Origin: a virus | Strand: one strand, 5' to 3' | Length of the DNA stretch: 24,751 bases | IMG/VR virus record: IMGVR_UViG_3300035698_029537 | Span: 1 to 24,751 of that record | In this document: piece by piece, positions 1 to 21,846 of the stretch | Layout of the letters: every line of letters begins with the position of its first letter | How positions within the stretch are numbered: the stretch's first letter is position 1 | Translations under genes and position numbers: made by a program | Notes under the pieces: model-generated | Database searches by the model: none | Told to the model about the DNA's origin: nothing | The model's input: only the letters and a program-made list of their open reading frames with translations

Positions 1-921
1 ACGATGTACCAAACCAACAAGTTCGTCTTTGCTTACGACACACCGAGTGGCTCGGGGATTCGCCGGGCCGCGCTTCCTCAATACAAAGACAACAGGGGCG
101 GTGACCAAGGCGAGGATGAAAAGGAACAGCGACAATCGTTGTATAGACAGCTCGATTTGCTTCGCGAGGAGGTCCTACCTGCCTTGGGGTTTACCAATAT
201 CTTCAAGTCCCAGGGCTTCGAGGCAGACGACATCATCGCCGCGGTGGTGGGCGTCGACCTTGGTGGCAGATATCGTGGAAGCGGATGTCGCCTACCGCAA
301 GGATGTGAGGCGGATGACAAGTTTGTGATTGTAAGTGGTGACCATGATCTTTATCAACTTCTCGGGGTTGCCGGGAGCGTCGTCATGTATCATCCGTCCA
401 CGAGGGTCGAATATTGCTATGCAAACTTCTGCAAGGAGTTCAACGTCCTCCCCGACATGTGGCCGATGGTGAAAGCCATAGCCGGGTGCCCGACGGACAA
501 CGTCCCAGGCGTTGTAGGCGTAGGCGAGATCACGGCGTGCAAGTATGTCAGGGGAAAGTTACCCGAGCATCTCAAGACCTACGCGAATATCATAGCGGCC
601 CGGGAACAAACCGGCCGGAACCTCCCGCTTGTTATGCTGCCGCACGCTTCTTTCCCGACGCAGGAGGTGATTATCAAACAACCCGATTTCAAAGGACGGT
701 CGTCAAGCTTCGCTTCAGTGTGTGAACGTTACAAGTTCAAGACATTTCAATCCGAAGCCACGCTCGCTCAATGGCGTGCGTTCTTCTCGGGGTCTTTCGC
801 GGGGGAACCGAAGACCCCCTACGGGCCTCCCCTTGGAAGGGTGACCCTACGGAAAGCGCCAACGTTGCGCGCTACGGCCCCTACACAACGCGACGTCACG
901 GCCGTAAGCTTCGGCTTCTAG
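1..921 (+). CDS. 5'-3' exonuclease (Pol I N-domain / FEN-like), 5'-truncated by window
   Basis: Structure-specific 5' nuclease of the PolI/T5/FEN family, expected to remove RNA primers and flaps during phage replication. The reading frame is open from base 1. The first visible segment (FVFAYDTPSGSGIRR) corresponds to the middle of the N-terminal PIN-like domain, and the usual start (LxxDGxNLxxR) is absent, so the true start lies upstream. Metal-binding motifs are visible in order: GFEADDIIAAV near residue 75 (canonical GYEADD), VIVSGDHDLYQLL near 110 (canonical SGDxDLxQL), and a helix-hairpin-helix-like PTDNVPGVVGVGEITA near 165-180 (canonical SDNIPGVPGIG). An extra Gly/Arg-rich insertion separates the first two acidic motifs. 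There is no polymerase domain. The stop abuts the ribosome binding site of the nuclease gene that follows. Family assignment is firm; the in vivo role is inferred. Confidence 0.9.
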   Translation, partial: TMYQTNKFVFAYDTPSGSGIRRAALPQYKDNRGGDQGEDEKEQRQSLYRQLDLLREEVLPALGFTNIFKSQGFEADDIIAAVVGVDLGGRYRGSGCRLPQGCEADDKFVIVSGDHDLYQLLGVAGSVVMYHPSTRVEYCYANFCKEFNVLPDMWPMVKAIAGCPTDNVPGVVGVGEITACKYVRGKLPEHLKTYANIIAAREQTGRNLPLVMLPHASFPTQEVIIKQPDFKGRSSSFASVCERYKFKTFQSEATLAQWRAFFSGSFAGEPKTPYGPPLGRVTLRKAPTLRATAPTQRDVTAVSFGF

Positions 922-929
922 GAGGGATT

Positions 930-1562
930 ATGGGATCAGGAAAAGGATCAGCTTTTGAGCGGGAATTGGCGAGGACCTTTTCCATTTGGTGGTCGGGCGG
1001 AGAGCACGATGATATGTTTTGGAGAGTACTGGGGTCCGGAGGACGGGCAACCACGCGAGCGCAAAAAGGTCAAAACACCGCGCACGCCTCCTTCGGGGAT
1101 ATCGAGTCAACCAACCCGGCCTCCGCTCCTTTTACCAATCTCGTCGTGCTGGAGTTCAAACGAGGCTACGGCCAATGGACCCTGCAGGACATGGTCGATT
1201 GCCGCTCGGTCAAGAACCGCGAGTGGTACGACTTCGTCATCCAAACGAGGCTTTCATGGGAAGCCAGCAAGCGTCCATTTTGGGCCATCGTTTATCAAAG
1301 GGACGGTCACAAAACGATGATCGCAATGTCGCCGGAGTTTTACACGTTCCTCGAAAAGAACGAAGTTGACTTTCGTGAAACCCCAAACGTCTCACTCAAC
1401 CACGGTGTATATTCTTGTGTGGCCATGAGGCTTGAGGATTGGACGCTTCTAGTTGACCCGAACATTTTCAAGGAGGAAGATAAACGCTATGATCAAGTCT
1501 CTCAAACTACAGAAGTTCCAGAGTCACGACGATGTGACCTTGAATTTCCGGCCTGGGGTTAA
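930..1562 (+). CDS. PD-(D/E)XK nuclease, Holliday-junction resolvase (Hjc)-like
   Basis: Predicted 210-residue nuclease. The start at 930 is chosen because GGAGGG lies just upstream and the protein opens with the family pattern KGSAFERELARTF. Then come VLGSGGRATTR near residue 35, GDIES near 56 and LVVLEFKRG near 70, which together give the E...GSGGR...D...ExK layout of Hjc-type PD-(D/E)XK enzymes. Such enzymes cut branched DNA, which fits its place between a 5' exonuclease and a Rad50/Mre11 pair. An upstream in-frame ATG at 771 would overlap the exonuclease gene and is rejected. The last 74 nt overlap the Rad50 N-half gene in another frame, so the final ~24 residues look like read-through rather than conserved sequence. 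Resolvase versus general endonuclease activity cannot be decided here. Confidence 0.72.
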   Translation: MGSGKGSAFERELARTFSIWWSGGEHDDMFWRVLGSGGRATTRAQKGQNTAHASFGDIESTNPASAPFTNLVVLEFKRGYGQWTLQDMVDCRSVKNREWYDFVIQTRLSWEASKRPFWAIVYQRDGHKTMIAMSPEFYTFLEKNEVDFRETPNVSLNHGVYSCVAMRLEDWTLLVDPNIFKEEDKRYDQVSQTTEVPESRRCDLEFPAWG

Positions 1563-2688
1563 CGTAATCATCGGGGACTCCGATTCCGGAAAATCCTCGA
1601 TATTACGCGCTTTGCGATGGGCGATTTTCAATAGACCCTCAGGGTTCGCCTTCCGAAGTCACTGGGCCGGGAAGAAAGACGTCACGCGTGTCGATGTCGA
1701 GCTTCACAAAGGTCCGACGGTTTCACGGATTCGCGACGAGGACCTGAACGCTTACCAAATATCGACCATGGAGCGTCCGCTCGAGGCGGTCCGCGTAGGC
1801 GTCCCGTCTGAGGTCGTCGAGGCCTTCGAGATGGACGACTTGAACATCCAGAAGCAGGGCGAAAAGCCATATTTGCTTGACGAATCCCCTCCGGAGGTGG
1901 CCCGTATACTAAACGCGATCGTGGGTCTCAGCGGAATTGACACAGCCCACACTCGGATAGCTGGGAAGGTCGTGAACAACCAAAGCGTATTACGTCAGGC
2001 CGAAGAAGCGGAGGCTACGGCCCGTGCGCAGCTTATCGCGTTTACCAATCTCGAGGAGCTCAAGGGGCTCGCCGTCGTCCTAGAGCAACGCAGCGGCTCG
2101 GTGAGTGTCATGTATGGGAAGCTAACGGAATTGGAGACACTCACCGAAGAAATCGAAACGACCAAAGCGGCGCTAGTTCTGCTTGCTGGTCTAGATGGCC
2201 TTCGACGCATGGGAGCAGCATTATCAAAACAAGCGGTTGCCGCAGCAAACGACCAAGCCGCCGTGACAAGCCTCGGCTCGGTACTGACGAAGGCCTCGGC
2301 GTTACTCGGTACGGTGGAGGCCTTGACGGATGAGCGGGTCACCCAAGCGGTAGAGACACGGGACAAGATACAAAAGCTGATCCAAGCTGACCTTCACGAA
2401 CCGCTACGCCTCGAAGCGATTATCAAACAAGCCACGGCCCTTTCGAAGCGGACGGCGCTCCTGCCCGTGGAAGAGGCCTTGGCCCTGCAGGACGGTATCC
2501 AAGAGGCTCTCGTAGCACGTAACGAGGCCTATCGGAAAGCCACCCTTTCTGGCGAGCTTATCGACGCTGTTCTTGCTTCGAACGTAAAATCGATAGAGGC
2601 TGACATTATCAAAACACAAGAAGAGCTTGCCGCGCTCGGTGTTTGTCCGGAGTGTGGAGCGGTAAAAGAGGATTGGAGAATTCTATGA
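1489..2688 (+). CDS. Rad50/SbcC-type ATPase, N-terminal half (Walker A plus coiled coil and CxxC hook)
   Basis: 399-residue N-terminal half of an SMC/Rad50-type ATPase. It opens with the family strand-helix MIKSLKLQKFQSHDDVTLNF, followed by Walker A GDSDSGKSS near residue 30-38 and LRALRWAIF. Residues ~160-390 are long, Ala/Glu/Leu-rich and coiled-coil-like. It ends in CPECG, a single CxxC like the apex of a Rad50 zinc hook, only about 10 residues before the stop. No signature motif or Walker B is present; those sit in a separate gene at 3832-4470. The start at 1489 has AAGGAGG upstream. The 3' end overlaps the Mre11-like gene by ATGA, implying translational coupling. It probably forms a heterodimeric ATPase with the other half and works with the nuclease on DNA ends. 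Family firm, assembly inferred. Confidence 0.85.
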   Translation: MIKSLKLQKFQSHDDVTLNFRPGVNVIIGDSDSGKSSILRALRWAIFNRPSGFAFRSHWAGKKDVTRVDVELHKGPTVSRIRDEDLNAYQISTMERPLEAVRVGVPSEVVEAFEMDDLNIQKQGEKPYLLDESPPEVARILNAIVGLSGIDTAHTRIAGKVVNNQSVLRQAEEAEATARAQLIAFTNLEELKGLAVVLEQRSGSVSVMYGKLTELETLTEEIETTKAALVLLAGLDGLRRMGAALSKQAVAAANDQAAVTSLGSVLTKASALLGTVEALTDERVTQAVETRDKIQKLIQADLHEPLRLEAIIKQATALSKRTALLPVEEALALQDGIQEALVARNEAYRKATLSGELIDAVLASNVKSIEADIIKTQEELAALGVCPECGAVKEDWRIL

Positions 2689-3584
2689 TAGACCTGATTA
2701 TAGCTGGGGACCTTCACGCTGGGAACTTGAAACCGGAATGCCGGAGCGACGACTATCTTGAATCGCTATGCAGCAAGCTCCGCTGGCTGGGGGATTTCCA
2801 AAAAGAGTGCTCGAAAGAGAACAAGAAGCCTGTACCAATCATCCTCCCGGGCGATCTATTCGACCACTGGAAACAGGAATCGCCCGAGATGAACCGTGTA
2901 CTCAGCGCCTGGCCGAGTGGTCCGGTATACGCCGTCCCGGGACAGCACGATCTTCCGTATCACAATCTGCAGCTCCAAGAGAAGTCGGCATATCAGACAT
3001 TGGTAATCGCGGGGGCTATAACAGACCTCCAAGCAGGGGATAAACAAACGCCCACGATCCCTTTGATTCGGGGCGTTGGTTGGGGCGGACCGTTAGGCCC
3101 GTTACAAGAGGGAGGGGAGCATCCGGCTGTTTTGGTCACACACGTTTCGACGTGGATGAAACCCTACATGCCTGGACAGGACCCTGGACACGCAGCCGGT
3201 CTTTTGCGGAAGCTTTCCGGTTGGGATTTGATAATCACAGGCGACAACCATCAGACCTTCGCGGTCGAGTGTGGGGAGCGCACGCTCATCAATGCTGGGA
3301 GCATTATGTGTATGAGGAGCGACCAACTCGAGCACGAGCCTTGTGTGTTTCTATGGGAAGCCGAGTCCAACCGAGTCCACAAAGTCACCATCCCGATTGC
3401 AGATGTTATTACCAATGAAAAGGTTCTCGCTCTGAAGGAGAAAGAGAGCCGCAAGACGGCGTTCGTTGAGAAGGTGGCCGGGGGGCAGGAGGTCGCTAGT
3501 TCTTTCGAAGACAACCTTGTAGAGTTGTTGAAGGGTGAAACTAAAGAAGTCGAAGAAGTCGTGCTTGAATGCACAAAGGGGTAA
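2685..3584 (+). CDS. Mre11/SbcD-like metallophosphoesterase nuclease
   Basis: 299-residue calcineurin-type phosphoesterase, the nuclease partner of Rad50/SbcC. All metal motifs are visible in order: GDLHAGN near residue 8 (DxH), GDLFDHW near 63 (GDxxD), PGQHDLPYHN near 90 (GNHD with Gln for Asn), LVTHVSTWM near 150 (H), and TGDNHQTF near 183 (GDxH). The C-terminal ~80 residues are charged and helical, suited to docking on the ATPase coiled coil. The start at 2685 forms an ATGA overlap with the ATPase N-half gene. Expected role: 3'-5' exonuclease/endonuclease at DNA ends in phage recombination and repair. The Gln in the GNHD position is the only noticeable deviation. Confidence 0.88.
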   Translation: MIDLIIAGDLHAGNLKPECRSDDYLESLCSKLRWLGDFQKECSKENKKPVPIILPGDLFDHWKQESPEMNRVLSAWPSGPVYAVPGQHDLPYHNLQLQEKSAYQTLVIAGAITDLQAGDKQTPTIPLIRGVGWGGPLGPLQEGGEHPAVLVTHVSTWMKPYMPGQDPGHAAGLLRKLSGWDLIITGDNHQTFAVECGERTLINAGSIMCMRSDQLEHEPCVFLWEAESNRVHKVTIPIADVITNEKVLALKEKESRKTAFVEKVAGGQEVASSFEDNLVELLKGETKEVEEVVLECTKG

Positions 3585-3586
3585 TT

Positions 3587-3841
3587 ATGAGCAATGAAGA
3601 AACGTTTACCAATCTGAAGAAGAGGCTCGACACGTTGCGCCACCGCAAGGCACGTGACGAGGGGGCCTTGGAGCAATTCATGGCCCAGTTGAAGGAAGAA
3701 TTTGGCTGCTCTAACGTAGAAGCAGCTCAAAAGCTTCATGTCAAATTGAAGGCCAAGGCCGAAAAGGAAGCAGCGGCGCTTTCCGAAGAGCTTGAGTTGT
3801 TTGAAAGCAAGGTCGGCATAATGGAGGCGGCATGTCGATGA
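3587..3841 (+). CDS. Small coiled-coil protein between the two Rad50 halves
   Basis: 84 residues, highly charged, with heptad-like stretches (ETFTNLKKRLDTLRHRK; KLKAKAEKEAAALSEELELF) and a single Cys in FGCSNVEAAQKL. The start at 3587 is supported by AAAGGGG seven bases upstream; an in-frame ATG at 3569 would lie inside the previous gene. Its end overlaps the Rad50 C-half gene by 10 nt. I do not recognise a family. Position and composition suggest a piece of the Rad50 coiled-coil arm or an accessory subunit of the Rad50/Mre11 complex; this is inference from context only. Confidence 0.7.
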   Translation: MSNEETFTNLKKRLDTLRHRKARDEGALEQFMAQLKEEFGCSNVEAAQKLHVKLKAKAEKEAAALSEELELFESKVGIMEAACR

Positions 3842-4470
3842 GCTTTATCAAATGTCGCCAGAGGCTCGCAGTGTTGACAGGTCGCCGTGATCACATTTTG
3901 GCCGAGGCTGAGCGGTTCGGCAACCTCCGAGCAGAGGCTACGGCCCGAACACTCGTACTCGAGCGGGCTCGTTTGATAATCCAACAGGCGGCAAAGACGA
4001 CCCAAGAGCAACTCGAGTACCAAGTAGGCGAGCTGGTAAGCCTCGGGCTCGAGCAGATCTTCCCCGACCCGTATAGGCTCAGGCTCCGTTTCGAAAGCAA
4101 ACGGGGTCGGACGGAAGCCGTGCTCTTGTTTGTAGACGCCTTTGGTAATGAGGTCGAGCCTATGGAGGCTTCGGGCGGCGGCGTCTGGGATGTCGCCAGC
4201 TTTGCCTTGCGTGTTTCGCTGTGGAGTTTGAAGAGGCCACGAGGAAGGGCGGTGCTTGTGCTCGACGAGCCTTTCAAGTTCCTGCACGGCAAAAGGCAAC
4301 AAGAGAGCGTCGCTTCTTTGGTGCGGGAATTGAGCCGACGCCTCAAACTCCAGTTTATCATTGTAACGCAAGAGGAATGGGGAACCGAGTTTGCCGACTG
4401 CGTCTTCCGCGTGAGCCGGTCGAAGCCCAAACCCAGCGTAATAGAGATCGAGGGCCAGTATGTTACGTAA
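3832..4470 (+). CDS. Rad50/SbcC-type ATPase, C-terminal half (signature motif and Walker B)
   Basis: 212 residues. The first ~65 residues are coiled-coil-like, then comes the ATPase lobe: LEQIFPDPYRLRLRFESKRG, the ABC/SMC signature region EASGGGVWDVASFALRVSLW near residue 109-128, Walker B RAVLVLDEPFKFL near 138-150, and FIIVTQEEW near 180 where Rad50 proteins usually have a switch His (here Gln). There is no Walker A in this protein; it is supplied by the separate gene at 1489-2688. The two halves together (about 610 residues) would make one compact ATPase. The start at 3832 overlaps the preceding small gene. The split across an Mre11 gene and a coiled-coil gene is the noteworthy point. Confidence 0.85.
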   Translation: MSMSFIKCRQRLAVLTGRRDHILAEAERFGNLRAEATARTLVLERARLIIQQAAKTTQEQLEYQVGELVSLGLEQIFPDPYRLRLRFESKRGRTEAVLLFVDAFGNEVEPMEASGGGVWDVASFALRVSLWSLKRPRGRAVLVLDEPFKFLHGKRQQESVASLVRELSRRLKLQFIIVTQEEWGTEFADCVFRVSRSKPKPSVIEIEGQYVT

Positions 4471-4825
4471 AGAGGTATGTGAGAAGTGTCGGCACGTCAA
4501 TGTTGATAATTGGACGATTTGCGCAGAGTGCGGGGCTCCGGCCCGGCCAGCATTCAAATGCTCGAATCGGAAAGGCCCCAACAATCTAGAGATGAAGATC
4601 AACGGCCAGGATGTAGCCCACTTCCTTCATTGTCTACATTTGGCGGTGGTCTATAATCGACCGCGTGAGGACGAGACCGCCGATTTCTTTTGGAGGCGCC
4701 ACGCCCGTTTACGAAACAAACTGAATTTACTCACGAACCGTATAATTGATAGTGCGGAAAACAACCCAAAGGAGCAGATAGATGTCACGGAAAGAACGAG
4801 AAGCGGCATCACGGAAACGGATTGA
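4460..4825 (+). CDS. Zinc-ribbon protein of unknown function
   Basis: 121 residues. The N-terminus carries two CxxC knuckles (CEKC at residues ~7-10 and CAEC at ~21-24), a typical small zinc ribbon, followed by a His-rich helical segment (DVAHFLHCLHLAVV) and a basic helical tail. The start overlaps the end of the Rad50 C-half gene by 11 nt, and the last 44 nt overlap the next gene. I do not recognise the family. Context (end of the repair operon) allows a DNA- or RNA-binding role, but nothing specific can be claimed. Confidence 0.65.
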   Translation: MLRKEVCEKCRHVNVDNWTICAECGAPARPAFKCSNRKGPNNLEMKINGQDVAHFLHCLHLAVVYNRPREDETADFFWRRHARLRNKLNLLTNRIIDSAENNPKEQIDVTERTRSGITETD

Positions 4826-5042
4826 GGAACTTGCCCAGGCTTGGGGGAAAATGGTTATGCGAAGTTCAAATCCCTATCAAGGTCTGAGCGCGGTCCTGCG
4901 CGAAAAGGAAGCCCTGCTTACCACAGAGCCTCAACGGGCGAACGAGTTTCGCGCTGCTTACTCGCAGTTTTCGGAACTCGTCGACGTGGCGGCGATCGAA
5001 GAGATCCAAGCCGAGGTTGATAAAGCGAACGCGCTGGTGTAA
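4782..5042 (+). CDS. Hypothetical small helical protein
   Basis: 86 residues beginning MSRKEREAASRKRIEEL, helical and charged throughout, with no Cys and no membrane segment. AAAGGAG about ten bases upstream of 4782 supports the start even though it overlaps the zinc-ribbon gene by 44 nt. The stop at 5042 immediately precedes the structured intergenic segment, so this is probably the last gene of the repair operon. Function not recognised. Confidence 0.6.
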   Translation: MSRKEREAASRKRIEELAQAWGKMVMRSSNPYQGLSAVLREKEALLTTEPQRANEFRAAYSQFSELVDVAAIEEIQAEVDKANALV

Positions 5043-5046
5043 TTGG

Positions 5047-5156
5047 GGCGCTGAAGAGCCGAATGAAATACCCCCTTATTCCCTGGTGATTCGGGGGTAT
5101 TTGAGGCGATGCCTCAGAACGCGTTCCGCTGGGGTACCCTATAAGGCTCTAGCGTC
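5047..5156 (+). ncRNA. Candidate structured RNA (multi-branched) in the 5043-5229 gene gap
   Basis: This gap has no convincing gene. Manual folding gives a closing stem of 12 pairs (5047-5052 with 5151-5156, including one G-U, then 5055-5060 with 5145-5150, with a two-base bulge at 5053-5054). It encloses a perfect 10-bp hairpin (5066-5075 with 5093-5102, 17-nt loop) and a 5-bp GC-rich hairpin (5103-5107 with 5111-5115, loop GAT). A further hairpin lies just outside (5166-5170 with 5178-5182). The 10-bp hairpin alone could act as a terminator, though its 3' arm ends in only a short U run. The long-range closing stem argues for a more elaborate RNA: a small phage RNA, an mRNA processing site or a protein-binding element. 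It is not a tRNA. Confidence 0.45.
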
Positions 5157-5229
5157 GATCCTCAAAGGCCAACGTCGGGCCTACAAAGGGCAGGAAAGCC
5201 TAACGAACTGAAATTACAGGAGGATTATT

Positions 5230-5505
5230 ATGGGACAGGCAAGAGACCGTGGAACATCCGAACAGCGCCGAATTCAATCGATCGAACAGCGCCGAATTCA
5301 ATCGATTGTCAATAAGAACCTTTACTTGACGGTCGTGATTGAAGAAATCAAAAAGACGCTGGGCGCGAAACAGACGGAACCGCTCACCAAGGAAGCCCTC
5401 AACATCCGTCACTACAAAGGAAGCGTGCTCGAGGTTGCGAGGGCTCAGCTCCTCGACCTTCACCGGAAACACCCCGAGCTGGTGACAGGAGGATTACCAA
5501 AATGA
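5230..5505 (+). CDS. Hypothetical protein with internal 8-residue tandem duplication
   Basis: 91 residues. ACAGGAGG lies upstream of the ATG at 5230. Near the N-terminus the octapeptide EQRRIQSI occurs twice in a row, encoded by an exact tandem repeat of 24 bp. The rest (LYLTVVIEEIKKTLGAK, then a helical tail) looks like a small globular protein with no metal or catalytic motif. It overlaps the next gene by four bases (ATGA). Not recognised. Confidence 0.65.
   Translation: MGQARDRGTSEQRRIQSIEQRRIQSIVNKNLYLTVVIEEIKKTLGAKQTEPLTKEALNIRHYKGSVLEVARAQLLDLHRKHPELVTGGLPK
5259..5306 (+). repeat. Exact 24-bp tandem duplication
   Basis: Bases 5259-5282 and 5283-5306 are identical, each containing an EcoRI-type GAATTC and ending in a ClaI-type ATCGAT. 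In frame they duplicate EQRRIQSI. Perfect identity suggests a recent slippage or duplication event. Confidence 0.95.
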
Positions 5506-6185
5506 GTGCAAAACGAATTTGCGTGGCTTGCGGCGCGGACATGAACGCTGGCGCTGTTGAGGGAGTGATGCTTTTTGGGCAAGAGGTTTTGCTGTGCGGG
5601 TTTCACAGGCGCTCCCTCAACTTCCTTGTGGTAGCTCACGGGCGACGCCGGGGATATACGAAATGGCTCGAGGAGAACAATTTGGTACAATCGGATCTAT
5701 TACCAAAGTCTCCTACCTCAGAGTCGGAGCTCCCCGATGCTATGCCGACATCCACGTGTCCGCTGAATTGCACGTCGGAGCGCACGCTCGACGTTTGGAT
5801 GCTCATAGCGACAGGCCACCATGAAGGTTGTCCGCTCCGGCCCACCGACAGCGTGTTCTATCGCTCGATTATCAAAAAGCTCCTGGACGGGATCGAAAAC
5901 TGGGCATCCGAAGAGGACGGCGTCCCCGACCCGCTTTACGGGGTCGTCCAAAGAGCGCGGATGATCTTCCGAGGGGCACCGGACCGACCGCCTCTTGGTG
6001 AACCCAAGACGTTCAGTTTGACGAAGAAGGAGTTCATCAAGATCCTGGAGGAGAGCCGCGAGGTCCAATGCAAGCTCGTCGACAGCCTCCCCGAAGGAAC
6101 ATTACCAACATTCTGGACAATGGCCTACGCAACGGATCATGATATTGAGCGGATGGCCGACGAGTACGAAAGGACACAGAAATGA
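5502..6185 (+). CDS. Hypothetical protein with N-terminal zinc-binding segment
   Basis: 227 residues. The N-terminus has CVACG (residues ~7-11) and a later CGFHRRSL, consistent with a CxxC...CxxH zinc site. The middle has a second Cys/His-rich patch (CPLNC, GHHEGCPL). The C-terminal half is helical (TKKEFIKILEESREVQCKLVDSL). The start at 5502 overlaps the previous stop and has AGGAGG upstream. It sits in a run of small zinc-type proteins typical of phage early regions. Function not recognised. Confidence 0.7.
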   Translation: MSAKRICVACGADMNAGAVEGVMLFGQEVLLCGFHRRSLNFLVVAHGRRRGYTKWLEENNLVQSDLLPKSPTSESELPDAMPTSTCPLNCTSERTLDVWMLIATGHHEGCPLRPTDSVFYRSIIKKLLDGIENWASEEDGVPDPLYGVVQRARMIFRGAPDRPPLGEPKTFSLTKKEFIKILEESREVQCKLVDSLPEGTLPTFWTMAYATDHDIERMADEYERTQK

Positions 6186-6451
6186 AATACATCTTTGCCG
6201 TACCAGATGAGTGGATCATACCTGTTCAGATCGGGTATAGGATGAGCTGCTGCGATTGCGGTCTAGTCCATGAGATGGATTTCCAAATTGTCGACGGAGC
6301 CGTACAATTCCGTTTGCGGTCGAACAATCGAGCAACAGCAGCAATAAGAAGGCACATGCCAAACAACCTAGACTACCTGCGCGAGGCACTTGCAAAGGCC
6401 GAGGCCCGGATAGTACAATTGGAAGGAGAGCACAATGGACCAAAACAATGA
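6182..6451 (+). CDS. Small conserved-type phage protein with CCDCG motif
   Basis: 89 residues starting MKYIFAVPDEWIIPVQIGYRMSCCDCGLVHEMDF. The YRMxCCDCGLVHxxDF pattern followed by a basic RSNNRATAAIRRH segment resembles a small protein found in many phage early regions (from memory, no database check). The Cys cluster suggests metal binding. The C-terminus is a short coiled coil. It overlaps the neighbours on both sides by 4 and 17 nt. Function unknown. Confidence 0.7.
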   Translation: MKYIFAVPDEWIIPVQIGYRMSCCDCGLVHEMDFQIVDGAVQFRLRSNNRATAAIRRHMPNNLDYLREALAKAEARIVQLEGEHNGPKQ

Positions 6452-6833
6452 ACCCAAAAAAGTCCCATGGAGCAGACGGAAGAGCCTAGAGACCGAACGC
6501 CTCCGGCAACTTGTCGACGACGTGTTCGCGGACGTGTTCGCGATTGCCAATGAATGTAATTGTATGTACGAGCACGGGGCTGAAGGCGCGGCCCACCTAC
6601 ACAAGATCGAGCTTATGCTCAGAAGGGCGACACTGAAAGACCCCCGATACACCAAGGCTGCGCCACCCGTTTGTTCAGTTTGCGGGAGACGAGACACAGC
6701 CACGGTCACAGTGGATTATCAAGATCGCCCGCTCAACCTTTGCCCACACCACGAACGCGAGTACACACGGAACATGCCCTACGGGAGCAAAACATCGGCG
6801 TCTCTCATCATCACGCGTTACGGGCTGGTGTAA
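6435..6833 (+). CDS. Hypothetical zinc-ribbon protein
   Basis: 132 residues. The N-terminal half is helical and charged. The C-terminal half has CSVCGRRDTATVTVDYQDRPLNLCPHH (residues ~80-106), a CxxC...CxxH zinc-ribbon arrangement. The start lies inside the end of the previous gene, with GGAAGGAG upstream. The family is not recognised, and no catalytic residues are evident. Confidence 0.68.
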   Translation: MDQNNEPKKVPWSRRKSLETERLRQLVDDVFADVFAIANECNCMYEHGAEGAAHLHKIELMLRRATLKDPRYTKAAPPVCSVCGRRDTATVTVDYQDRPLNLCPHHEREYTRNMPYGSKTSASLIITRYGLV

Positions 6834-6883
6834 ACGAATAAACGAACCTCGGGCGTATAATGAGTACGAAAGGGAACATCATT

Positions 6884-7054
6884 ATGGTGATCAGCGATTT
6901 GCAGCGGCGAGGGCCTGGCGCTATGTCTGCACGATTGTTGGAACATAACTTGTCGGGAGTGCATGGCGGCTACGGCACGCTACGACACGCGAGAACAAGC
7001 ATGGGCCGCTTGGGACCGCAGACCGGAAGACGGGGAAGGCGCATAGCTCTATGA
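6884..7054 (+). pseudogene. Doubtful small ORF; possible frame-broken Lar-like zinc protein
   Basis: The stretch 6834-7050 has no clean gene. The ORF given starts at 6884, with AAAGGGA seven bases upstream (an ATG at 6860 is also in frame), and ends overlapping the methyltransferase ATG. However, its C-terminal half is low-complexity Gly/Arg, typical of a wrong frame. In the frame starting at 6924 the translation reads CLHDCWNITCREC then DTREQAWAAWDRRPED, closely resembling the C-terminal half of small Lar-type (restriction alleviation) zinc proteins, which end in a TxxEAxxAWNRR pattern. That frame has no start codon downstream of the stop at 6888-6890. A one-base change could join the frames. 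Either a decayed gene, a sequencing error or a real short ORF. Confidence 0.3.
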
Positions 7055-7929
7055 TCAGGATTATCAACAGCGACTGTAGGGAGGCGCTCAAGAAGCTCCC
7101 CGAACAATCAATCAATTGCTGCGTCACTAGTCCGCCTTACTGGGGATTACGGGATTACGGATACATTGCCCAAGTGGGATTGGAAAAGACGCCGGAGGCC
7201 TACGTCGCTGAGCTTGTAGCTGTCTTTGCTGAGGTGAAAAGGGTCCTACGCGACGATGGGACGCTTTGGCTGAACCTCGGAGATACATACGGGAATGGGA
7301 GTGGGATGAACTTCATCAGCGGTTCCAACAAACTCCATGTTTCCAAAACGTTCAAAGCAGGTGATTCAGGGCACATAAAAACAGAAGTGGAAACAGGGCT
7401 GAAAACCAAAGACCACGTCGGCATCCCCTGGCGCGTCGCCTTTGCCCTACAAGCCGATGGCTGGTACCTACGACAGGACATAATTTGGCACAAACCAAAC
7501 GCCATGCCGGAAAGCGTGACAGATCGATGTACCAAGAGCCACGAGTATATCTTCTTATTGAGTAAGAGTGAGCAGTACTACTATGACAACGAGGCCATAC
7601 AGGAAGAAACAACGGGCGAGGGCAGCAAAGAAGTAGGAAGCCTTAAACTCCGATTGAAAAGAGAGAAACGCAACAAACGTGACGTCTGGATTGTCAATAC
7701 CCAAGCGTACAAAGGGGCACACTTCGCTTGCTATCCGCCAGCATTGATACTGCCCTGCATCCTGGCCGGATGTCCCAAGGGCGGGACCGTCCTTGACCCA
7801 TTTGCAGGTAGTGGGACGACAGGAGAGGTGGCCGCAAGCGTCTCAAGAAAAACGATCCTGATTGAGAGTAAGGAAGAATATTGCCAATTGATCAGACAAC
7901 GATGTGGATTGTTCATAGAGCATAACTAA
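7051..7929 (+). CDS. DNA methyltransferase, beta-class (N4-cytosine or N6-adenine)
   Basis: 292 residues with the beta-class motif order: catalytic motif IV TSPPYWGLRDYG near residue 27-38 first, then the AdoMet-binding motif I DPFAGSGTTG near 250 at the C-terminal end. SPPYW is the form common in N4-cytosine enzymes, although some N6-adenine enzymes share it. A DIIWHKPNAMPES segment near 146 is typical of the family, and the target recognition region probably lies at ~165-220. There is no partner endonuclease nearby, so it is probably a solitary modifying enzyme protecting phage DNA or marking it for regulation. It stands directly before the terminase genes. Specificity cannot be read from sequence. 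Confidence 0.9.
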   Translation: MIRIINSDCREALKKLPEQSINCCVTSPPYWGLRDYGYIAQVGLEKTPEAYVAELVAVFAEVKRVLRDDGTLWLNLGDTYGNGSGMNFISGSNKLHVSKTFKAGDSGHIKTEVETGLKTKDHVGIPWRVAFALQADGWYLRQDIIWHKPNAMPESVTDRCTKSHEYIFLLSKSEQYYYDNEAIQEETTGEGSKEVGSLKLRLKREKRNKRDVWIVNTQAYKGAHFACYPPALILPCILAGCPKGGTVLDPFAGSGTTGEVAASVSRKTILIESKEEYCQLIRQRCGLFIEHN

Positions 7930-7937
7930 GAATAGGG

Positions 7938-7966
7938 TTGCACATTCTGCAACTATCCCCTATATG
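7938..7966 (+). promoter_or_regulatory. Candidate promoter and hairpin upstream of the terminase operon
   Basis: In the 67-bp gap before the small terminase gene, TTGCAC (7938-7943) and TATATG (7961-7966) are separated by 17 bp, a weak sigma70-like match. The same bases form a hairpin: GTTGCA (7937-7942) with TGCAAC (7948-7953), flanked by ATAGG (7932-7936) and CCTAT (7959-7963). The dyad could be an operator over the promoter or a transcript hairpin. This is the natural switch point from early genes to the head operon. Low confidence without expression data. Confidence 0.35.
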
Positions 7967-7996
7967 GTAGGGCAAGCCCGATAAGGAGCACTACCC

Positions 7997-8563
7997 ATGA
8001 GACAGATAGACGTTGACGACATCCCGAAAGAATGGCTGGAAGAGGTATTACCAAAGCCTGAAAAAGAGAAGGCGAATAGAGCCACAAAGGCGAACGGAAG
8101 ATGGACACCAAGACGTACCGGATTCCCGCTGAAGAATCCAGTGTCAAGGAATGGCAGACCTACAAAGTACACACCAGACATGATACATAGGGCCTTGTAC
8201 CAAGCCAATGGGTTGAAGAGCAAGGCGTCAGAATTACTGGGTTGTGACTATGGATATTTATTGGGAGTTATCAAAGAAGATCCGACGTACCAAATCACCA
8301 TAGAGAGGTCACGCAGTCGACGGTTGGACAAAGCGGAGCAGGTAATCGACACTCACCTGGACAAGGACGATCTCACAGCAGCGATTTACGTGACCAAGTG
8401 CCTGGGCAAACACCGTGGGTATGTTGAACGAATCGAGCAAGCCCAGGTGCAAATCCCCCCCGACCTTGACACCATGAGCGACACGCAGCTCTCCGAACTC
8501 ATTGAGCAGCTCGACAAACGTCTGCAACGTGGCCAGGTAGCGGAGGCCCAGAAACAAGAATGA
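7997..8563 (+). CDS. Terminase small subunit
   Basis: 188 residues, DNA-recognition subunit of the packaging motor. A basic N-terminus (RWTPRRTGFP) is followed by a helix-turn-helix-like segment (YTPDMIHRALYQANGLKSKASELLGCDYGYLLGVIKEDP, residues ~55-95), then helices that would form the oligomer core and a charged C-terminal tail for contact with the large subunit. AAGGAG lies upstream of the ATG at 7997, and the gene overlaps the large terminase gene by ATGA. Position and HTH support the call; direct family identity is inferred. Confidence 0.75.
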   Translation: MRQIDVDDIPKEWLEEVLPKPEKEKANRATKANGRWTPRRTGFPLKNPVSRNGRPTKYTPDMIHRALYQANGLKSKASELLGCDYGYLLGVIKEDPTYQITIERSRSRRLDKAEQVIDTHLDKDDLTAAIYVTKCLGKHRGYVERIEQAQVQIPPDLDTMSDTQLSELIEQLDKRLQRGQVAEAQKQE

Positions 8564-9978
8564 ACGACGTCCTCCAACGCGTCAGAGCAGCAGCAGCCAG
8601 GAAGCTTGACCTCCGGATCAGGGCACGCTCAAACTTCCTTGCTTACCTCGAATTGATTTGGTGGATGTCGCACCCGCTCGTGATCGGCAAGCATACCAGG
8701 CTGATGTGCGACGCGGTCGACCGAGCCATCGCGAAGTTCTTCAATGGGGAGAGTTCTTTCCTACTTGTACAGGTGCCTTTCCGCCACGGTAAGAGCGACA
8801 TCTTCAGCAGGGCGCTGGTTGGATACTTCCTTGGACGATGTTCAATACACGGCGGCGACCCCGACGTGATCTTGACGGGATACGGCAGTGGCTTGGTTGA
8901 AGGATTCAGCACGGACGCGAAAGGCATCATCCGCTCAGCCGACTACCAGAGGATCTTCCCCGAAGTCAAAATCGCCCGGGGACGGGACAATATTGGAGAG
9001 TGGAGGATTGAGAAGTGCTTCGGTAAAGTCATAGCTGCCAGTCTAGGCGGCGCGATCACAGGCAAGGGTTACCACCTGGGCGTGGTGGATGACTATTGCA
9101 AGAACCGAAAAGAAGCCGAATCTGAGACCTATCGAGAAGACACATGGAACCACATCGGCCAGGACTTCATGACCCGCCGCGCACCGGTGAGTATCACCAT
9201 CATTGTTGCAACACCTTGGCACCTTGACGACCCCGCTGGCCGGGTGTTGAAGAAGATGGAGGAAGACCCCGACTTCCCACAGTTCGAGCATATCCGGCTT
9301 CCCTGGCGGACGGAGGTGGCCAAAGACGAGTTTGAGTATCTCTTCCCTGAACGCTACCCCGAATCTTGGTACCGGTCCCAATATTCGACGCTCGGGCGTT
9401 ACGCTGCTGCTGGCCTCCTGGGCTGCGACCCAATGCCAGCCGAGGGTAACGCAGCCAAACGTGAGTGGTTCCCAGTTGTCGACGCCTACCCCGCTGCCTT
9501 CGACGGGATCGTCCGAGCTTGGGACCTCGCCGCGTCAAGCAAGAAGGAATCCGACTATTGCGTTGGCACCAAGATGATCGAGTGCAGTGGCATCTATTAC
9601 ATCCTCGACCAGCACCGAACCCAGATTGCCGCTGGCTCTGTTCGCAGCATGGTCAAGGCCATAGCCTCCCAGGACGGTTTCGACATCCCCGTCCGTATTG
9701 AGCAGGAGGGTGGTAGCGCTGGCAAGATCTTGGTCAGCGACTTCGCACGGGAGCTTGCAGGGTGGGAGTTCTACTTCACCCACCCCACAGGCGACAAACT
9801 CACCAGAGCGCTCCCGTTATTTGCTCAGGCCGAGGCCGGGAACGTCCGGCTGCTACGTGGCGCCTGGAACGAAGACTTTCTAAGAGAAGTGACAGCTTGC
9901 CCCAACGGGGTTAACGACGATACATGGGACAGCGCGGCGCTGGCCTTCTACCATCTCACAAGGCCACACGCAGGATAG
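8560..9978 (+). CDS. Terminase large subunit (packaging ATPase-nuclease)
   Basis: 472 residues. The ATPase domain has a Walker A-like VPFRHGKS (Lys78) and Walker B LGVVDDY (Asp177-Asp178). The RNase H-like nuclease domain starts VRAWDLAASSKKESDYCVG with the first catalytic Asp at 322, and a late acidic cluster NGVNDDTWDSAALAF lies near the C-terminus. A TPWHLDDPAGRVL segment near residue 220 fits the coupling motif and adenine-side region. It translocates DNA into the prohead and cuts the concatemer. It overlaps the small terminase stop and lies seven bases before the portal gene. Length and motifs are as expected for a full-length enzyme. Confidence 0.93.
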   Translation: MNDVLQRVRAAAARKLDLRIRARSNFLAYLELIWWMSHPLVIGKHTRLMCDAVDRAIAKFFNGESSFLLVQVPFRHGKSDIFSRALVGYFLGRCSIHGGDPDVILTGYGSGLVEGFSTDAKGIIRSADYQRIFPEVKIARGRDNIGEWRIEKCFGKVIAASLGGAITGKGYHLGVVDDYCKNRKEAESETYREDTWNHIGQDFMTRRAPVSITIIVATPWHLDDPAGRVLKKMEEDPDFPQFEHIRLPWRTEVAKDEFEYLFPERYPESWYRSQYSTLGRYAAAGLLGCDPMPAEGNAAKREWFPVVDAYPAAFDGIVRAWDLAASSKKESDYCVGTKMIECSGIYYILDQHRTQIAAGSVRSMVKAIASQDGFDIPVRIEQEGGSAGKILVSDFARELAGWEFYFTHPTGDKLTRALPLFAQAEAGNVRLLRGAWNEDFLREVTACPNGVNDDTWDSAALAFYHLTRPHAG

Positions 9979-9985
9979 GAGAATT

Positions 9986-12928
9986 ATGCAAGACGACAAC
10001 ATGGTGATTGGACGGTCGATTATCCCAGCCTCCCCGTACGCAAGGGTGGCCGAGGAGTTTTCTGCTCTGCTGATCAATAGCTCGCTTACCACGATGAGGC
10101 AGACCATCAGCAACAGGGCTGGGTTCACCCATGAGGGGCAGCGAGACATCTACGCCGCTTGCGGCTACCCTCGCGAGCTCACCGTCTATGACTACCACGC
10201 CAGGTTCAAGAGGGGCGATGTGGCTGCTCGCGTCATCACTGCATATCCAGATGCTTGCTGGAAGATCTTCCCCGAAGTGTGGGACGGCCTCCCCAAGAAG
10301 GACAAGGGCCAGGAGAAGGCTATCGACGGTGGCACGGCAGACGCCGAGGCTGAGGAGGAACCAGCGCCCACATGGGAAGCAGCCCCACCGAAGCAACTCG
10401 CCTGGACCCCTGGGAATCCGTTCCCCAACCCAGGGGCTGCTGCAGACGTCGACCCTGAAAAGGACATCCTCAAGAAGAAGGCCTCCGAGCTGAACGAGGA
10501 GACCGCCTTCGAGAAAGCGTGGAAGGACATCATCAAGCGTTGCCGTCTGCAGCACTACCTTCGGAAGCTCGACGTCCTCACCGGCATTGGGAGATATGGC
10601 GTTCTGTTCCTGGGGTTCGACGACTCCGAAGACCTCACCCTACCAGTGACGCAAGGCTCGAAGCTCGTCTACGTGCAAGCGTTCCGCGAGGATTGCGCTG
10701 GGGTAGCTGGGCTCGTCAACGACCCCGCTGACCCACGATATGGAATGCCAGCGTCCTACAACCTTCGGACAGCGCAGGGGCTGAGCAACAGCAATTCCCG
10801 AATCGCGATCCCGAACATCCCCTATGAACAGAATGCTCTCACCGGCCTCATGCTGAGCAACGTCCACAGATCGCGCTGCATCCACGTGGTCGAAGAGGCT
10901 GACGACGGGGAGGTCTTTGGCCAGCCCAGAATGGAGAATGTTTGGAACCGCCTCCAAGACATCGAGACCTCGGTCAGTGCCTCAGGGGAGACCTTTTGGC
11001 GCTCCGGCTTCCAGCGGGTGTTTGCGAAGATCGACCCAGGCGAAGGGACCGTGTTCAGCAAGCGCGACAAGAAGGACTTCGAAGAGCGGCTCGAGGAGGT
11101 CATGTATGGGCTGAAAGACTACATCGTCGGCCAAGGCCTCAACATGCAGACCCTCAGCGGCCAGACCGCAGACCCCCAAGCGATCGTCACCACCTGCCTC
11201 CAGCTCATAGGCGCGGCCCGGCGAATCCCATACAGAATCTTGACCGGAAGCGAGGAGGGCGAGTTGGCTGGGACGCAGGACGGCGACAACTTCAAGAGCA
11301 ACATCGAGGCTCGGCGGAACGGCTTCTGCAACGACGTCATCATCCGTCCCCTGGTGGACCGCCTGATCGAATGTGGGGCGTTGCCAAAACCCAACAATGA
11401 CACGTTCGAGATCGAGTGGACAGGCATCGAGGAGGAGAAGCCGCTGGAGCAGGTGCAGATCGTCGCCGGACGCGTGACCGCTTGCGCTCAGTACCTGGCC
11501 GGGAGCGTCGACCAGCTTATCCCACGCAGAGCCTTCCTAACCGACGAGCTTGGCATCGACGGTAACCTGGCTGATGAGTGGCTCGCCGAGGCTGACCTTC
11601 AAGTTGAGCAGGATGAGGCCGAGGCCCAGCAGCAACAGGCTATGGCCATGGAACAGATGCAAGCTGGCCAGGCTGCGGCTGGTCAAGGTGCTGCCCCTGG
11701 TGAAGATGAGGAAGGTCCGCCGAAACCGCCTTCCCCGTTTGACCCCAAAACCATGTCGAAAGAATGGGACTTCCAAATCTCCAAAGTACCCGCAAGGGCA
11801 ACGGGTCTACGCACCAACGCCTTTCGCGTAGGGGCTCTTCTCCGGCGTCTCTTCGGGCACGCTCCGGCCTCCGCTTCCAACGTCCTTACCATCGGAGACG
11901 AGCTGCTTGTGACGCTACGCTCTGGGATCAGGACGAACGCCGTCGTGACCGGTCAGGATTCCGCTGGATATATGGTTGTGACCACGGAGGCCGGGCGGCT
12001 TGTTCGCCTCCCGCTGAAGACGCTGGGTGGCTCCGGCTCTGGGAACTTCGGCCATGCTGGTCGTCCCGGGGAGCGGGGTGGTTCAGCCGAGGGCTCAGCT
12101 TCCCCGTCCCCCACCGATCCTGCTTCGAAGAAGGCCAAGCCCGAAAGCCCCGAGAGTTCCAAGGGTCCCAAGAAGTTCACCGGAGCGATGGCGAACCCCA
12201 AGGGCGCTGACACCTTCGAGCAGTTTCACACAGCCGATGGCAAGTGGACGCCTGAACGGATGAAGCTCCATGACGAGATCGTCCGGAAGGTCTTCGAAGG
12301 AAAGACCCCCGTGGATAAACCGACCTCGTTCATCATGGGAGGAGGCCCGGCGGCTGGGAAAAGCACGATCCTGAACACGGGGCTGGTCACCCTTCCCAAG
12401 AACCACGTCATGGCTGAGGGCGACGAGCTCAAGAAGAGCATCCCCGAATACCAGGGGTACTTGGACGCCAAAGATCCAATGGCTGCTTCAAGGGTTCATG
12501 AGGAGTCAAGTTTCTTATCTAAAAGAATTGCGCGAGAAGCCGCTGCTCAGGGGTATAATGTAGTGATGGATGGAACAGGCGACGGCGGCATTCGATCACT
12601 AACAGCGAAGGTGGCTTCTATGAAGAGTTTGGGACAGCCCGTTCACGGCATCTACGCCACGGTCCCAGTTGACATGGCGATTGCCCGTGCCGCTGCTCGC
12701 GCTGAGAAGACAGGCCGATGGGTTCCTGATTCAGCGACCCGAGCCTCGCACGCTGGCGTCTCGGCCGTCTTCCCCGAGATCATCAAACAGGGGCTGATGG
12801 ACAAGATCCAGCTCTTCGACACCTCCACGGGGGATACGGTCCTTATCGCCAGCGGCGCTGGGAAGGTCCTCACCATCCACGACCAAGTTCTTTATCAGAG
12901 TTTCCTCGATAAAGCGAAAGAAGGCTGA
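9986..12928 (+). CDS. Portal protein (DUF1073-type) fused to a zeta-toxin-like kinase
   Basis: 980 residues. Residues ~1-560 are a portal of the DUF1073 type (for example RDIYAACGYPRELTVYDYHARF, then GIGRYGVLFLGFDD, then RIPYRILTGSEEGELAGTQDGDNF), which forms the head-vertex ring for DNA entry. A Gln/Ala-rich stretch (~560-580) and a small beta-rich segment follow. The Gly-rich linker GSGSGNFGHAGRPGERGGS lies at 682-700. From ~730 to the end is a P-loop kinase with GGGPAAGKST (Lys792), GDELKKSIPEY, DGTGDGG and RAAARAEKTGR, the pattern of zeta toxins, which phosphorylate UDP-N-acetylglucosamine. No antitoxin is visible. GGAG precedes the ATG. The fusion is continuous in frame; whether the kinase stays attached or is cleaved off is unknown. 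The kinase region is locally more AT-rich than the portal part. Confidence 0.88.
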   Translation: MQDDNMVIGRSIIPASPYARVAEEFSALLINSSLTTMRQTISNRAGFTHEGQRDIYAACGYPRELTVYDYHARFKRGDVAARVITAYPDACWKIFPEVWDGLPKKDKGQEKAIDGGTADAEAEEEPAPTWEAAPPKQLAWTPGNPFPNPGAAADVDPEKDILKKKASELNEETAFEKAWKDIIKRCRLQHYLRKLDVLTGIGRYGVLFLGFDDSEDLTLPVTQGSKLVYVQAFREDCAGVAGLVNDPADPRYGMPASYNLRTAQGLSNSNSRIAIPNIPYEQNALTGLMLSNVHRSRCIHVVEEADDGEVFGQPRMENVWNRLQDIETSVSASGETFWRSGFQRVFAKIDPGEGTVFSKRDKKDFEERLEEVMYGLKDYIVGQGLNMQTLSGQTADPQAIVTTCLQLIGAARRIPYRILTGSEEGELAGTQDGDNFKSNIEARRNGFCNDVIIRPLVDRLIECGALPKPNNDTFEIEWTGIEEEKPLEQVQIVAGRVTACAQYLAGSVDQLIPRRAFLTDELGIDGNLADEWLAEADLQVEQDEAEAQQQQAMAMEQMQAGQAAAGQGAAPGEDEEGPPKPPSPFDPKTMSKEWDFQISKVPARATGLRTNAFRVGALLRRLFGHAPASASNVLTIGDELLVTLRSGIRTNAVVTGQDSAGYMVVTTEAGRLVRLPLKTLGGSGSGNFGHAGRPGERGGSAEGSASPSPTDPASKKAKPESPESSKGPKKFTGAMANPKGADTFEQFHTADGKWTPERMKLHDEIVRKVFEGKTPVDKPTSFIMGGGPAAGKSTILNTGLVTLPKNHVMAEGDELKKSIPEYQGYLDAKDPMAASRVHEESSFLSKRIAREAAAQGYNVVMDGTGDGGIRSLTAKVASMKSLGQPVHGIYATVPVDMAIARAAARAEKTGRWVPDSATRASHAGVSAVFPEIIKQGLMDKIQLFDTSTGDTVLIASGAGKVLTIHDQVLYQSFLDKAKEG
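12026..12085 (+). repeat. Gly-rich linker copy 1 (portal / zeta junction)
   Basis: Encodes portal-fusion residues 681-700, type A (core SGNFGHAGRPGERGGS). Separates the portal part from the zeta-like kinase. Confidence 0.9.
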
Positions 12929-12930
12929 GT

Positions 12931-13092
12931 ATGCTAACATCAACCGAGATTGAAATCATCATGACCGACCACTTGAACGGCCGAGAGCCAAGAGTCAAGA
13001 GCGAAGAAGCCGACAAGTTCCGAGCCGAGTTGGACGTGGATATTGCCCACGCCAAGGAAAAGGACTGGGTCATCGACATCCCGAAAGAATAG
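12931..13092 (+). CDS. Small hypothetical protein, 53 residues
   Basis: ATG at 12931, two bases after the portal-fusion stop, running to TAG at 13090-13092. The protein begins MLTSTEIEIIMTDHLNGREP and is acidic and helical, without Cys. There is no strong Shine-Dalgarno, but the proximity to the preceding stop allows coupled translation. Downstream, CCGGAGG serves the next gene. Not recognised. Given its place directly after the zeta-like kinase, an antidote role could be imagined, but epsilon antitoxins are longer and there is no sequence support. Confidence 0.5.
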   Translation: MLTSTEIEIIMTDHLNGREPRVKSEEADKFRAELDVDIAHAKEKDWVIDIPKE

Positions 13093-13109
13093 CACCTCCG
13101 GAGGTTTCT

Positions 13110-16100
13110 ATGTTTGCGCAATTATTGAAGACACTCGGTGGTCCCGGCTCCGGCAACTTTGGACATTCCGGCGGTGAAGGCGGCCCAGGCAATCCTGGCG
13201 GATCTGGGAAGGGAGGGTCCGCCGCGAAGCTTTCTCCCATAAAGGCGAAAGTCATCGCCTCAGCGAAGTTTGGTGAGGATGTGTTTGTTCCCGACGCCGA
13301 GGCTGATTTGAAGAGGTTTCTGGACAGGCTGCCGGACCATCTCGTTCGCGAAGCCGGAATCCAGAGAATGTTCGTCACAGAGGATTCAGCCACTCTTGCT
13401 GATAAGTTAGACGAAGTTGGGGTCTATGGATCGGATGGGGCGAACGGAATGTTTGACGCCACGGATCGTCAGTTATATTTTGCACTCTACAATTACGAGG
13501 ACCTTGGGATGGGCGTTGGTGGGGAGAGTGATAAGCGTCCTGGGGTGAGCGGCAGAACATTCTTTCATGAATTCGGCCACGCCCTTGCCCGTGGAGGGAC
13601 GAAAGAATGGAAGAAAGCCCAGAATGACGACGAGGGCCACGCCGACACCGAGGAGAGGTTCGCTGAGCTGTTTGCGTCACGTATGCTGATTATGCCCGAA
13701 GACGATGAGTTTTGGGCGGCTCGACCTAACATTGTGAAATACATGGATTCGTTGGGGATAGGTCCTGCTCTCAAGAATCTCGGTGGTGAAGGCAGCGGCA
13801 ACTTCGGTCACAGTGGCGGTGAAGGTGGCCCTGGTAACCCTGGCGGGTCTGGGAAGGGTGGTGGCAAAGGAAGTAACCCCTCCGACAGCGCTTCTTCGAA
13901 AGAAGGTAAGGCAACCCGTGGGAAGAAAGCCAAGGCCTCCTCAAAGACCACCGGCGGCGACTGCTACCAGGCTGCTGGCCGTTTGATCTCGGGCAAAGGA
14001 TATTCAGACCCGTCCATGAGGCTTGTCCACGGGATGGTGGCCGGGCAGGGAGAGCTCGACGGGACACGGTTCGATCACGCTTGGGTCGAGTACAAAGACA
14101 AAGACACTGGCCTGGACATGGTGAAAGACACCTCCAATGGTCGGAACATCGAACTTCCCAAGGCGCTCTATTACATGATCGGCAAAATCGACAATACCAC
14201 AACATACACCCACGAGCAGGTAATCAAGCAATCCACGGACACAGGACATTGGGGTCCTTGGAGCGAGGGGGTTACGACAAACGAGCCTCACGTCCTCGGC
14301 GGTCCCGGTTCCGGCAACTTCGGCCACGCTGGACGGCTTGGTGAGGTGGGCGGCTCAGTTCCGCAAAGTTCGGCTGTCTCCATCGAAGGAGGTCGGACAG
14401 CAAAAGCACGTCAACAATGGGCAAAGAAGGCCGTAGCCCACGGTTCCCACATCTCGATGTCCGAAGCAAAACTCTTCAGCCACAAAGAGATCTGGCCAGC
14501 GACTAAATCATGGTCGATTCAAGAGGATGAGTTCAACACACATCTCAAAAAGATGGCTGTGGCAAAAGTGGCTTTCCGCCTGGAAGCTCACGTAGAAAAG
14601 ACAGCCGCTGCTCGTCAAGCGCTCCAAAGTTCGTCTGAGGGGGAGACGGAGATTGACACGAAAACATTCGCTGATATTTGCATAAAACAATGGACGTTAG
14701 AATCCTGCGGATACACTCCGTCTGCGCTGGCTATGCAGGAAGCGGCGGCGGCGGAGTTTGGGATTCCTATTCGGCCTTCTTTTCAAAAACGCATAGATGA
14801 GATCACCAAATACACAAGCAAAGATCCAGATTCTTATGAGGAAATGGTGAAGGCTGGTTCTCGGGAGGAAATGGAGAAGTTCCAAGCTCCCGAAGTGCAG
14901 GAAGGCTTCCGGACGTTCCTCCGTGCTCAGTATGAAGAGACCCAAAAGACTCTCAAAGAAGAAGGGGTCGAGGAGATCACATTATTCCGGGGAACGAATC
15001 AGCCTTCGGGACGAGTGTCGAAGCTTTTGGGCGATTCTGAAGTATTGACGAACCCAATGACCTCCTGGACACTCGACCCATACCTAGCCACTTCCTTCGC
15101 CAAAGAACCGTCCCGGGGGATAGTTCTCGCATCGACGTTCAAGCGCAAAGATATTCTCGCAATACCTGGTTCTGGGATGGGCTGTACGCGTGAATTGGAA
15201 TTTGTAGTCAGGGGTGGCGCGTTGAAGACATCGGGAATGATGTCGCGGAAACTCGAGGAAGCTATGGAAGATTCAGGACGCGCAGCAGGTTCTCTACAAG
15301 AGGTAGCCGTAGAAGCGATCGAGGCCGAAGCCAACCGTGTCCGGAAATACAAAATCAACGCAGAGGATGAGGAGGATTTGGTCGACATTGACGCTGATGA
15401 CGATGAGGCGAATTGGCCCAAACGGACGAAGGACGTCGAACTCGATTGGAACCAGCTTGCTGAGTTGGACGAGCGTATTGCTCAACTCGTCGACGAACCC
15501 GAATTGGAGGTCGCCCTCGACTACGAGACCCACAGCCCCAAAACCAACGAAGGTAACGCGAACAGCGGGAATCACGAACACTCCGGACGCCCGGGCGAGG
15601 TGGGCGGCAGCGGCCCGTCCAGCCTTCCCATCCGCGCACGTGGTGTTGACGGAGCCAAGGCCGTTCACCGCATAACGACAGGCTATACCGAAAAGACCGA
15701 CAAGCACGAGGTTGTTCACCAAATCCCCACCTACGCGTGGCGCAACGCTGACGGCAGCGAGGTTACGAACAAGGCGATGATCGAAAGAATCAAGGCCGTC
15801 CACGGGACCCGAGCCATGTCCCCCGGCACGCCTGCCGCTTGGATCAACCCCGACCCAAAATCGCCACTTCTTGCGGTAGCTTTCGACACGAAGGGGCGTG
15901 CGCAGCCTGTGTACGATAAGAAATTCGACAAGGAGAACAAGCTCGCGAAGTTCGAGCGGGTGGCCGAGCTCAGCACTCACATCAACGACATCCGCGACCA
16001 AGTTTCTGCTGATTGTGACGAAGGGCGGACAGAAGCGTTCCTCTTCCGGTTGGCTGACCGGACGGTTATGCGAATAGACAGCGGGGCGGACACGAAGGCA

Positions 16101-16649: not shown

Positions 16650-16667
16650 TGAACGAAGGAGTAAACC

Positions 16668-16913
16668 ATGAAGATCAAAATCGAAGACATCATCTATGAG
16701 TACACCGACGATAAGTGGGCAGCTACCGAAGAGCGAGGCGACGAGGCCGTTCGGGTACTTCTGAACCTGTCCGTAGTGAACATCGAAACACCACGGGATT
16801 GCTCACCAAATTGGGAAGCGGAGGTTCTCCAAGCAGCAGAAGGGGCGTTCCCCGAACTCGAGGTTGTCGACGGGCCTCCTGTCTTCGAGTACGTCCCCGG
16901 CACCATCTATTGA
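16668..16913 (+). CDS. Hypothetical acidic protein
   Basis: 81 residues beginning MKIKIEDIIYEYTDDKWAA, acidic, mixed alpha/beta, no Cys cluster or catalytic motif. GAAGGAG eight bases upstream of 16668 is a good ribosome binding site. It sits between two cargo-type genes; a chaperone or immunity role for a neighbouring enzyme is possible but has no sequence support. Not recognised. Confidence 0.65.
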   Translation: MKIKIEDIIYEYTDDKWAATEERGDEAVRVLLNLSVVNIETPRDCSPNWEAEVLQAAEGAFPELEVVDGPPVFEYVPGTIY

Positions 16914-16920
16914 GGTTACT

Positions 16921-19298: not shown

Positions 19299-19356
19299 GT
19301 CCCCCCCTTCTGACGGTTACTAAAAGATAGTTCCTTGATTCCGCTATTTTGGGGTT

Positions 19357-19404: not shown

Positions 19405-19428
19405 CAGACCAACCTACTGGAGAGCGGG

Positions 19429-21813: not shown

Positions 21814-21846
21814 GCAAAACCGTAGAATTCGAACAGGAGTAATTCC

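Follow-up and report, generated by a model that had tools for sequence, protein, structure and literature searches.

An evenly spaced, strand-neutral array of the word WTTAYCAAW within the early genes of an uncultured tailed phage fragment

Why would a short DNA word recur at even intervals through the bodies of one set of viral genes and be absent from the genes that follow? This question is raised by the IMG/VR virus record IMGVR_UViG_3300035698_029537, whose entire 24,751 bases form the window analysed here. The contig is a piece of an uncultured tailed phage, and megablast found no near match to it among sequenced phages. Genes were delimited manually from open reading frames, and every one called is on the plus strand, with DNA-metabolism genes on the left and terminase and structural genes to their right. 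The word is WTTAYCAAW, with the seven-base core TTAYCAA. We describe its array, weigh the explanations for it, and then turn to the surrounding genes and the search for relatives. Because the contig is a fragment, any restriction of the word to the early region holds within the contig.

A strict, spaced word on both strands

The core TTAYCAA is present in 27 copies within 191-8274, 21 on the plus strand and 6 on the minus strand, and in zero copies on either strand of 8275-24751, the ~16.5 kb that hold terL and the structural genes. The full 9-mer WTTAYCAAW occurs 19 times, whereas 100 dinucleotide shuffles gave 0.68 ± 0.79 copies and never more than 3. As a stricter null, we used 1000 synonymous-codon shuffles, which leave the proteins and the codon usage unchanged. 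These predict 3.9 ± 1.8 copies of the core in the early part (maximum 11) and 3.1 ± 1.7 in the late part. The resulting enrichment estimate is conservative, because the words may have influenced the very amino acids that the shuffle keeps fixed; when codon order is shuffled too, only ~1.7 copies are expected. When all 7-mers of the early region were ranked against the codon null, TTATCAA came first and TTACCAA second. Furthermore, the words use all three reading frames, which rules out a bias of codons or dipeptides as the cause.

The word is also strict. Its core is invariant save at the Y position (15 T, 12 C), and its flanks favour A or T (25 of 27 copies at -1, 21 of 27 at +7). Single-mismatch variants show no enrichment (36 versus 41 ± 5), nor do palindromic variants of this non-palindromic word. 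A search for a longer motif or a paired half-site returned weak flanking preferences, a G at -2 and a C at +13, that are not significant given the number of positions tried. The embedded TTGATA and GATAAT look like promoter hexamers, yet they have no conserved partner hexamer and were set aside as decoys.

Both orientations are enriched under the codon null: plus copies 7.1-fold (21 against 2.9 expected) and minus copies 6.2-fold (6 against 0.97). Once coding limits are counted, the 21:6 split carries no orientation bias, because the minus orientation contains a stop in one frame. Under the codon shuffle, 75% of the copies are expected on the plus strand (p = 1.0 for the observed split), and an estimate based on the late genes gives 63%, with which the split is still compatible (p = 0.12). 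The six minus copies, at 3000-5017, fall into two groups (5 runs, p = 0.005), a pattern for which we have no explanation.

The sites keep apart from one another. Even the closest pair is 128 bp apart; across 20,000 random placements the minimum gap never exceeded 108 bp. The gaps also vary less than chance would give (p = 0.004). Neighbouring sites show no 10.5-bp helical phasing, and the best values for a fixed period look like chance among the many tested, without formal correction. Counted per 2 kb from the left, density runs 6, 10, 6, 3, 2 and then 0; the array tapers off instead of ending in a step. The sites are dispersed along the genes and do not cluster at gene starts or in intergenic gaps. 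A stretch without sites (7068-8047) lies over the methyltransferase gene, and the array ends inside the putative small terminase gene (terS), which holds the last two sites.

These results bear out the main point of an earlier note on this sequence, which had likened the pattern to a dispersed array of binding sites and set codon bias aside. Its suggested comparison with a codon-preserving shuffle came out in its favour, as did its statements that all three frames are used and that sites about 128 bp apart at the closest avoid each other. Other statements stood in part. The figure of about 27 copies applies to the seven-base core and not to the full 9-mer, and the grouping of the minus copies was confirmed, although the strand split needs no preference of orientation. 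Similarly, the restriction to the early region is supported by the empty right part, but there is no clean border between early and late genes.

What might read the word

The array itself is solid; the mechanism is what we infer. We favour, at a probability of roughly 35%, the reading that the 27 words are sites for a phage-encoded protein that binds double-stranded DNA and bridges or condenses it, thereby organising and/or silencing the early module. The gene for such a putative sequence-specific protein most likely lies in a part of the phage genome beyond the fragment. The protein would bind the asymmetric 9-bp WTTAYCAAW as double-stranded DNA in either orientation, at intervals of ~130-500 bp. 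It would draw the sites of the early module together in a compact complex and leave the late module free. The complex might organise the early DNA at entry, replication or packaging, might silence it, or might do both.

Because both strands are about equally enriched, a non-polar signal in double-stranded DNA is favoured over RNA or single-strand signals, and the intragenic scatter and the spacing floor, taken together with this enrichment, also argue against a promoter. Primase or RNA-processing sites, which the earlier note had listed among its options, should be polar, and the 6-7 fold enrichment on both strands speaks against them; packing, also on that list, or a non-polar binding protein may account for the array. 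The bending persistence length of DNA is ~150 bp. The 128-bp floor lies near this length, and closer sites would be hard to bridge, which suits a bridging protein. A bolder version of the same idea is a phage-specific DNA-organising system, in which a protein reading a 9-bp word, placed evenly within genes and without regard to strand, would build a nucleoprotein domain on the early half only; this we consider rather unlikely.

Several points weigh against a bridging or condensing protein. No binding protein has been identified, and the unassigned early genes match no DNA-binding family. No relative carrying the array was found, and none of the ~65 loci of the terminase clade described below has an excess of TTAYCAA. 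The spacing floor could also arise, whatever the function, if sites close together bring diminishing returns. Additionally, the late deficit is weak when taken alone (0 versus 3.1, p ~0.04 as Poisson), and the contig end cuts off the left end of the array.

The main rival is a phage nickase, for which the words would mark localized single-strand interruptions in virion DNA, as in tf, Rembedalsseter, phiKMV-like phages and T5. This explanation is possible, if doubtful. Localized nicks have been described in the Pseudomonas phages tf, Rembedalsseter and relatives, with the motifs TACT/RTGMC (tf) and WACTRTGAC, and these are the nearest known format to the array. WTTAYCAAW shares with them a strict, short, asymmetric form, that of a 9-mer with W as first base and a single R/Y position, and in both cases the sites lie mostly in coding sequence, are spaced, and occur chiefly towards the early side. 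In tf, three near matches to the motif escape nicking, which parallels the strictness of the window word. However, in our control analysis the 14 nick-motif sites of tf (minimum gap 721) all lie on one strand, with 0 on the other even when one mismatch is allowed, whereas the window array is enriched on both strands about equally. The array is also about tenfold denser, and no nickase was identified in the window.

Stoperator-like operators, at which an immunity repressor bound to many asymmetric sites would block elongation through the early genes, are an unlikely explanation, although the earlier note had offered them. The resemblance to the stoperators of Cluster A/CA actinobacteriophages and of phage R4 lies in an asymmetric word with about 25 copies across many genes (25 putative sites in Rasputin, a Cluster A/CA phage). 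Moreover, 21 of the 27 sites run with transcription, and nearly every early gene has one. Nevertheless, stoperators are by their published descriptions intergenic or overlap gene ends, they all face one way with respect to transcription, and repression is lost when a site is reversed. The window sites, in contrast, lie deep in gene bodies and are confined to one module, and 6 of the 27 are reversed, with no bias beyond coding limits. No integrase was seen in the fragment, nor any repressor by PHROGs, Pfam and NCBIfam, and most of the genome lies outside it. By the tests made, the array therefore fits neither stoperators nor nick motifs, though it may work like either.

Sites for a host protein (Chi-like, nucleoid or cell-division signals) that the phage has borrowed seem improbable. 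Chi-like words can be over-represented in genes on both strands, and one phage locus, L071, shows this for GTAGCGG, with 17 copies against 1.2 expected at 2967-20487, on both strands and mostly from the terminase onwards; the word contains AGCGG, the Chi word of B. subtilis. Such a signal should, however, serve genome-wide, and the late 16.5 kb have none. The matS, Noc and SlmA sites, which organise bacterial chromosomes, offer a further comparison from general knowledge: they too are short and dispersed through genes over one replicon region, but they are palindromic and kilobases apart, whereas the window words are asymmetric, ~300 bp apart and in a phage.

A role as recognition sequence for the methyltransferase that the phage itself encodes (7051-7929), or for some host modification system, is more improbable still. 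The word is strict and IUPAC-like with one Y, and an N4/N6 methyltransferase gene does sit inside the array. Yet nothing known selects for added methylation sites, evenly spaced, in one third of a phage, and the nearest characterised relatives of the enzyme include CcrM and RsrI, whose recognition sites are palindromic. Finally, in some other TTAYCAA-rich contigs the copies come from repeats that are in phase or spaced in tandem. For the window, the codon-preserving shuffles, the use of three frames and both strands, and the irregular spacing exclude, for practical purposes, chance, protein repeats and any bias of codons or dipeptides.

Sites, neighbouring genes and relatives

The sites, given here from left to right and on the plus strand unless marked, begin in a 5'-3' exonuclease gene (up to 921), with TTACCAA at 191-197 and TTATCAA at 351-357 and 671-677. 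A PDDEXK_15 nuclease gene (930-1562) follows, with TTACCAA at 1132-1138 and TTATCAA at 1292-1298. The N-half of an SbcC/Rad50-like ATPase (1489-2688) holds five sites, TTACCAA at 1752-1758 and 2042-2048 and TTATCAA at 2221-2227, 2420-2426 and 2606-2612. A calcineurin-like phosphoesterase in the SbcD position (SbcD-like, 2685-3584) has TTACCAA at 3000-3006 and TTATCAA at 3228-3234, both on the minus strand, and TTACCAA at 3409-3415. In the small gene at 3587-3841 lies TTACCAA at 3606-3612, and in an ATPase resembling the SbcC-like C-half (3832-4470) lie TTATCAA at 3845-3851 and, on the minus strand, TTATCAA at 3973-3979 and TTACCAA at 4142-4148.

The Rad50/SbcC gene appears to be split over 1489-4470 into an N-half, the SbcD-like phosphoesterase, the small gene and the C-half ATPase. 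The N-half ends at its C-terminus in a zinc-hook-like CPEC, and the region corresponds to PHROGs 16465 and 15167. Several small early genes downstream of the C-half ATPase either have no assigned function or are of the zinc-ribbon type. Two minus-strand copies of TTATCAA lie in the zinc-ribbon gene (4460-4825; site at 4503-4509) and in the gene at 4782-5042 (site at 5017-5023). The TTACCAA at 5494-5500 is at the end of the gene at 5230-5505, beside the ribosome-binding site of the next gene (5502-6185), which itself carries TTACCAA at 5700-5706, TTATCAA at 5869-5875 and TTACCAA at 6102-6108. Close to the start of the gene at 5230-5505 is a 24-bp perfect tandem duplication (5259-5306). The gene at 6435-6833 has TTATCAA at 6716-6722, and the N6/N4 DNA methyltransferase gene (7051-7929) has TTATCAA at its start (7061-7067).

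The putative terS (7997-8563), so named from its position and its similarity to the gene preceding terL in related contigs, a weak basis, contains TTACCAA at 8048-8054 and the last site, TTATCAA at 8268-8274. Immediately 5' of it, at 7936-7975, a promoter-like TTGCAC-17-TATATG, read by eye, overlaps the inverted repeat TTGCACATTCTGCAA; this element is a possible late promoter with operator. Downstream lie the large terminase gene terL (8560-9978) and a single 980-aa reading frame in which portal and minor-head domains are fused (9986-12928), followed in the right part by head morphogenesis, decoration and major-head-like genes. No RNA families or tRNAs were found in a search of the window.

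Exact-peptide searches with the TerL, SbcD-like and SbcC-like proteins found no close relatives, and a portal search yielded three distant loci, all without the array. Terminase-based searches defined a clade of ~65 loci, with proteins 33-45% identical over the full length and up to 61% over short segments; some of these loci are in metagenome-assembled genomes labelled Verrucomicrobia, Kiritimatiellae, Lentisphaerae or Alphaproteobacteria. No locus of this clade shares the early replication and recombination genes of the window, and matches to the early region consist at most of the methyltransferase or terS, or of a single match, short and marginal, to a small unassigned gene. Among the matches listed, two three-site pattern scans of IMG/VR viral contigs gave only AT-rich chance occurrences or in-phase coding repeats. 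In a de novo word search of 153 loci, two (L138 and L030) outscored the window, with copies 4-10 bp apart; within the terminase clade, none did.

Meaning of the array

Evenly spaced, forced words impose a coding cost on the genes that carry them, and something must therefore select for these words at the DNA level. A word repeated through DNA-metabolism genes and absent from particle-building genes points to some protein that reads this part of the viral DNA. Among the phage site arrays with which we compared the present one, none is at once intragenic, strand-neutral, bounded by a minimum spacing and confined to a single module. The array bears on a 50-year-old question, the reason for the marking of early DNA by some phages, and its 9-bp word provides a bait for finding the phage DNA-binding or nicking protein.
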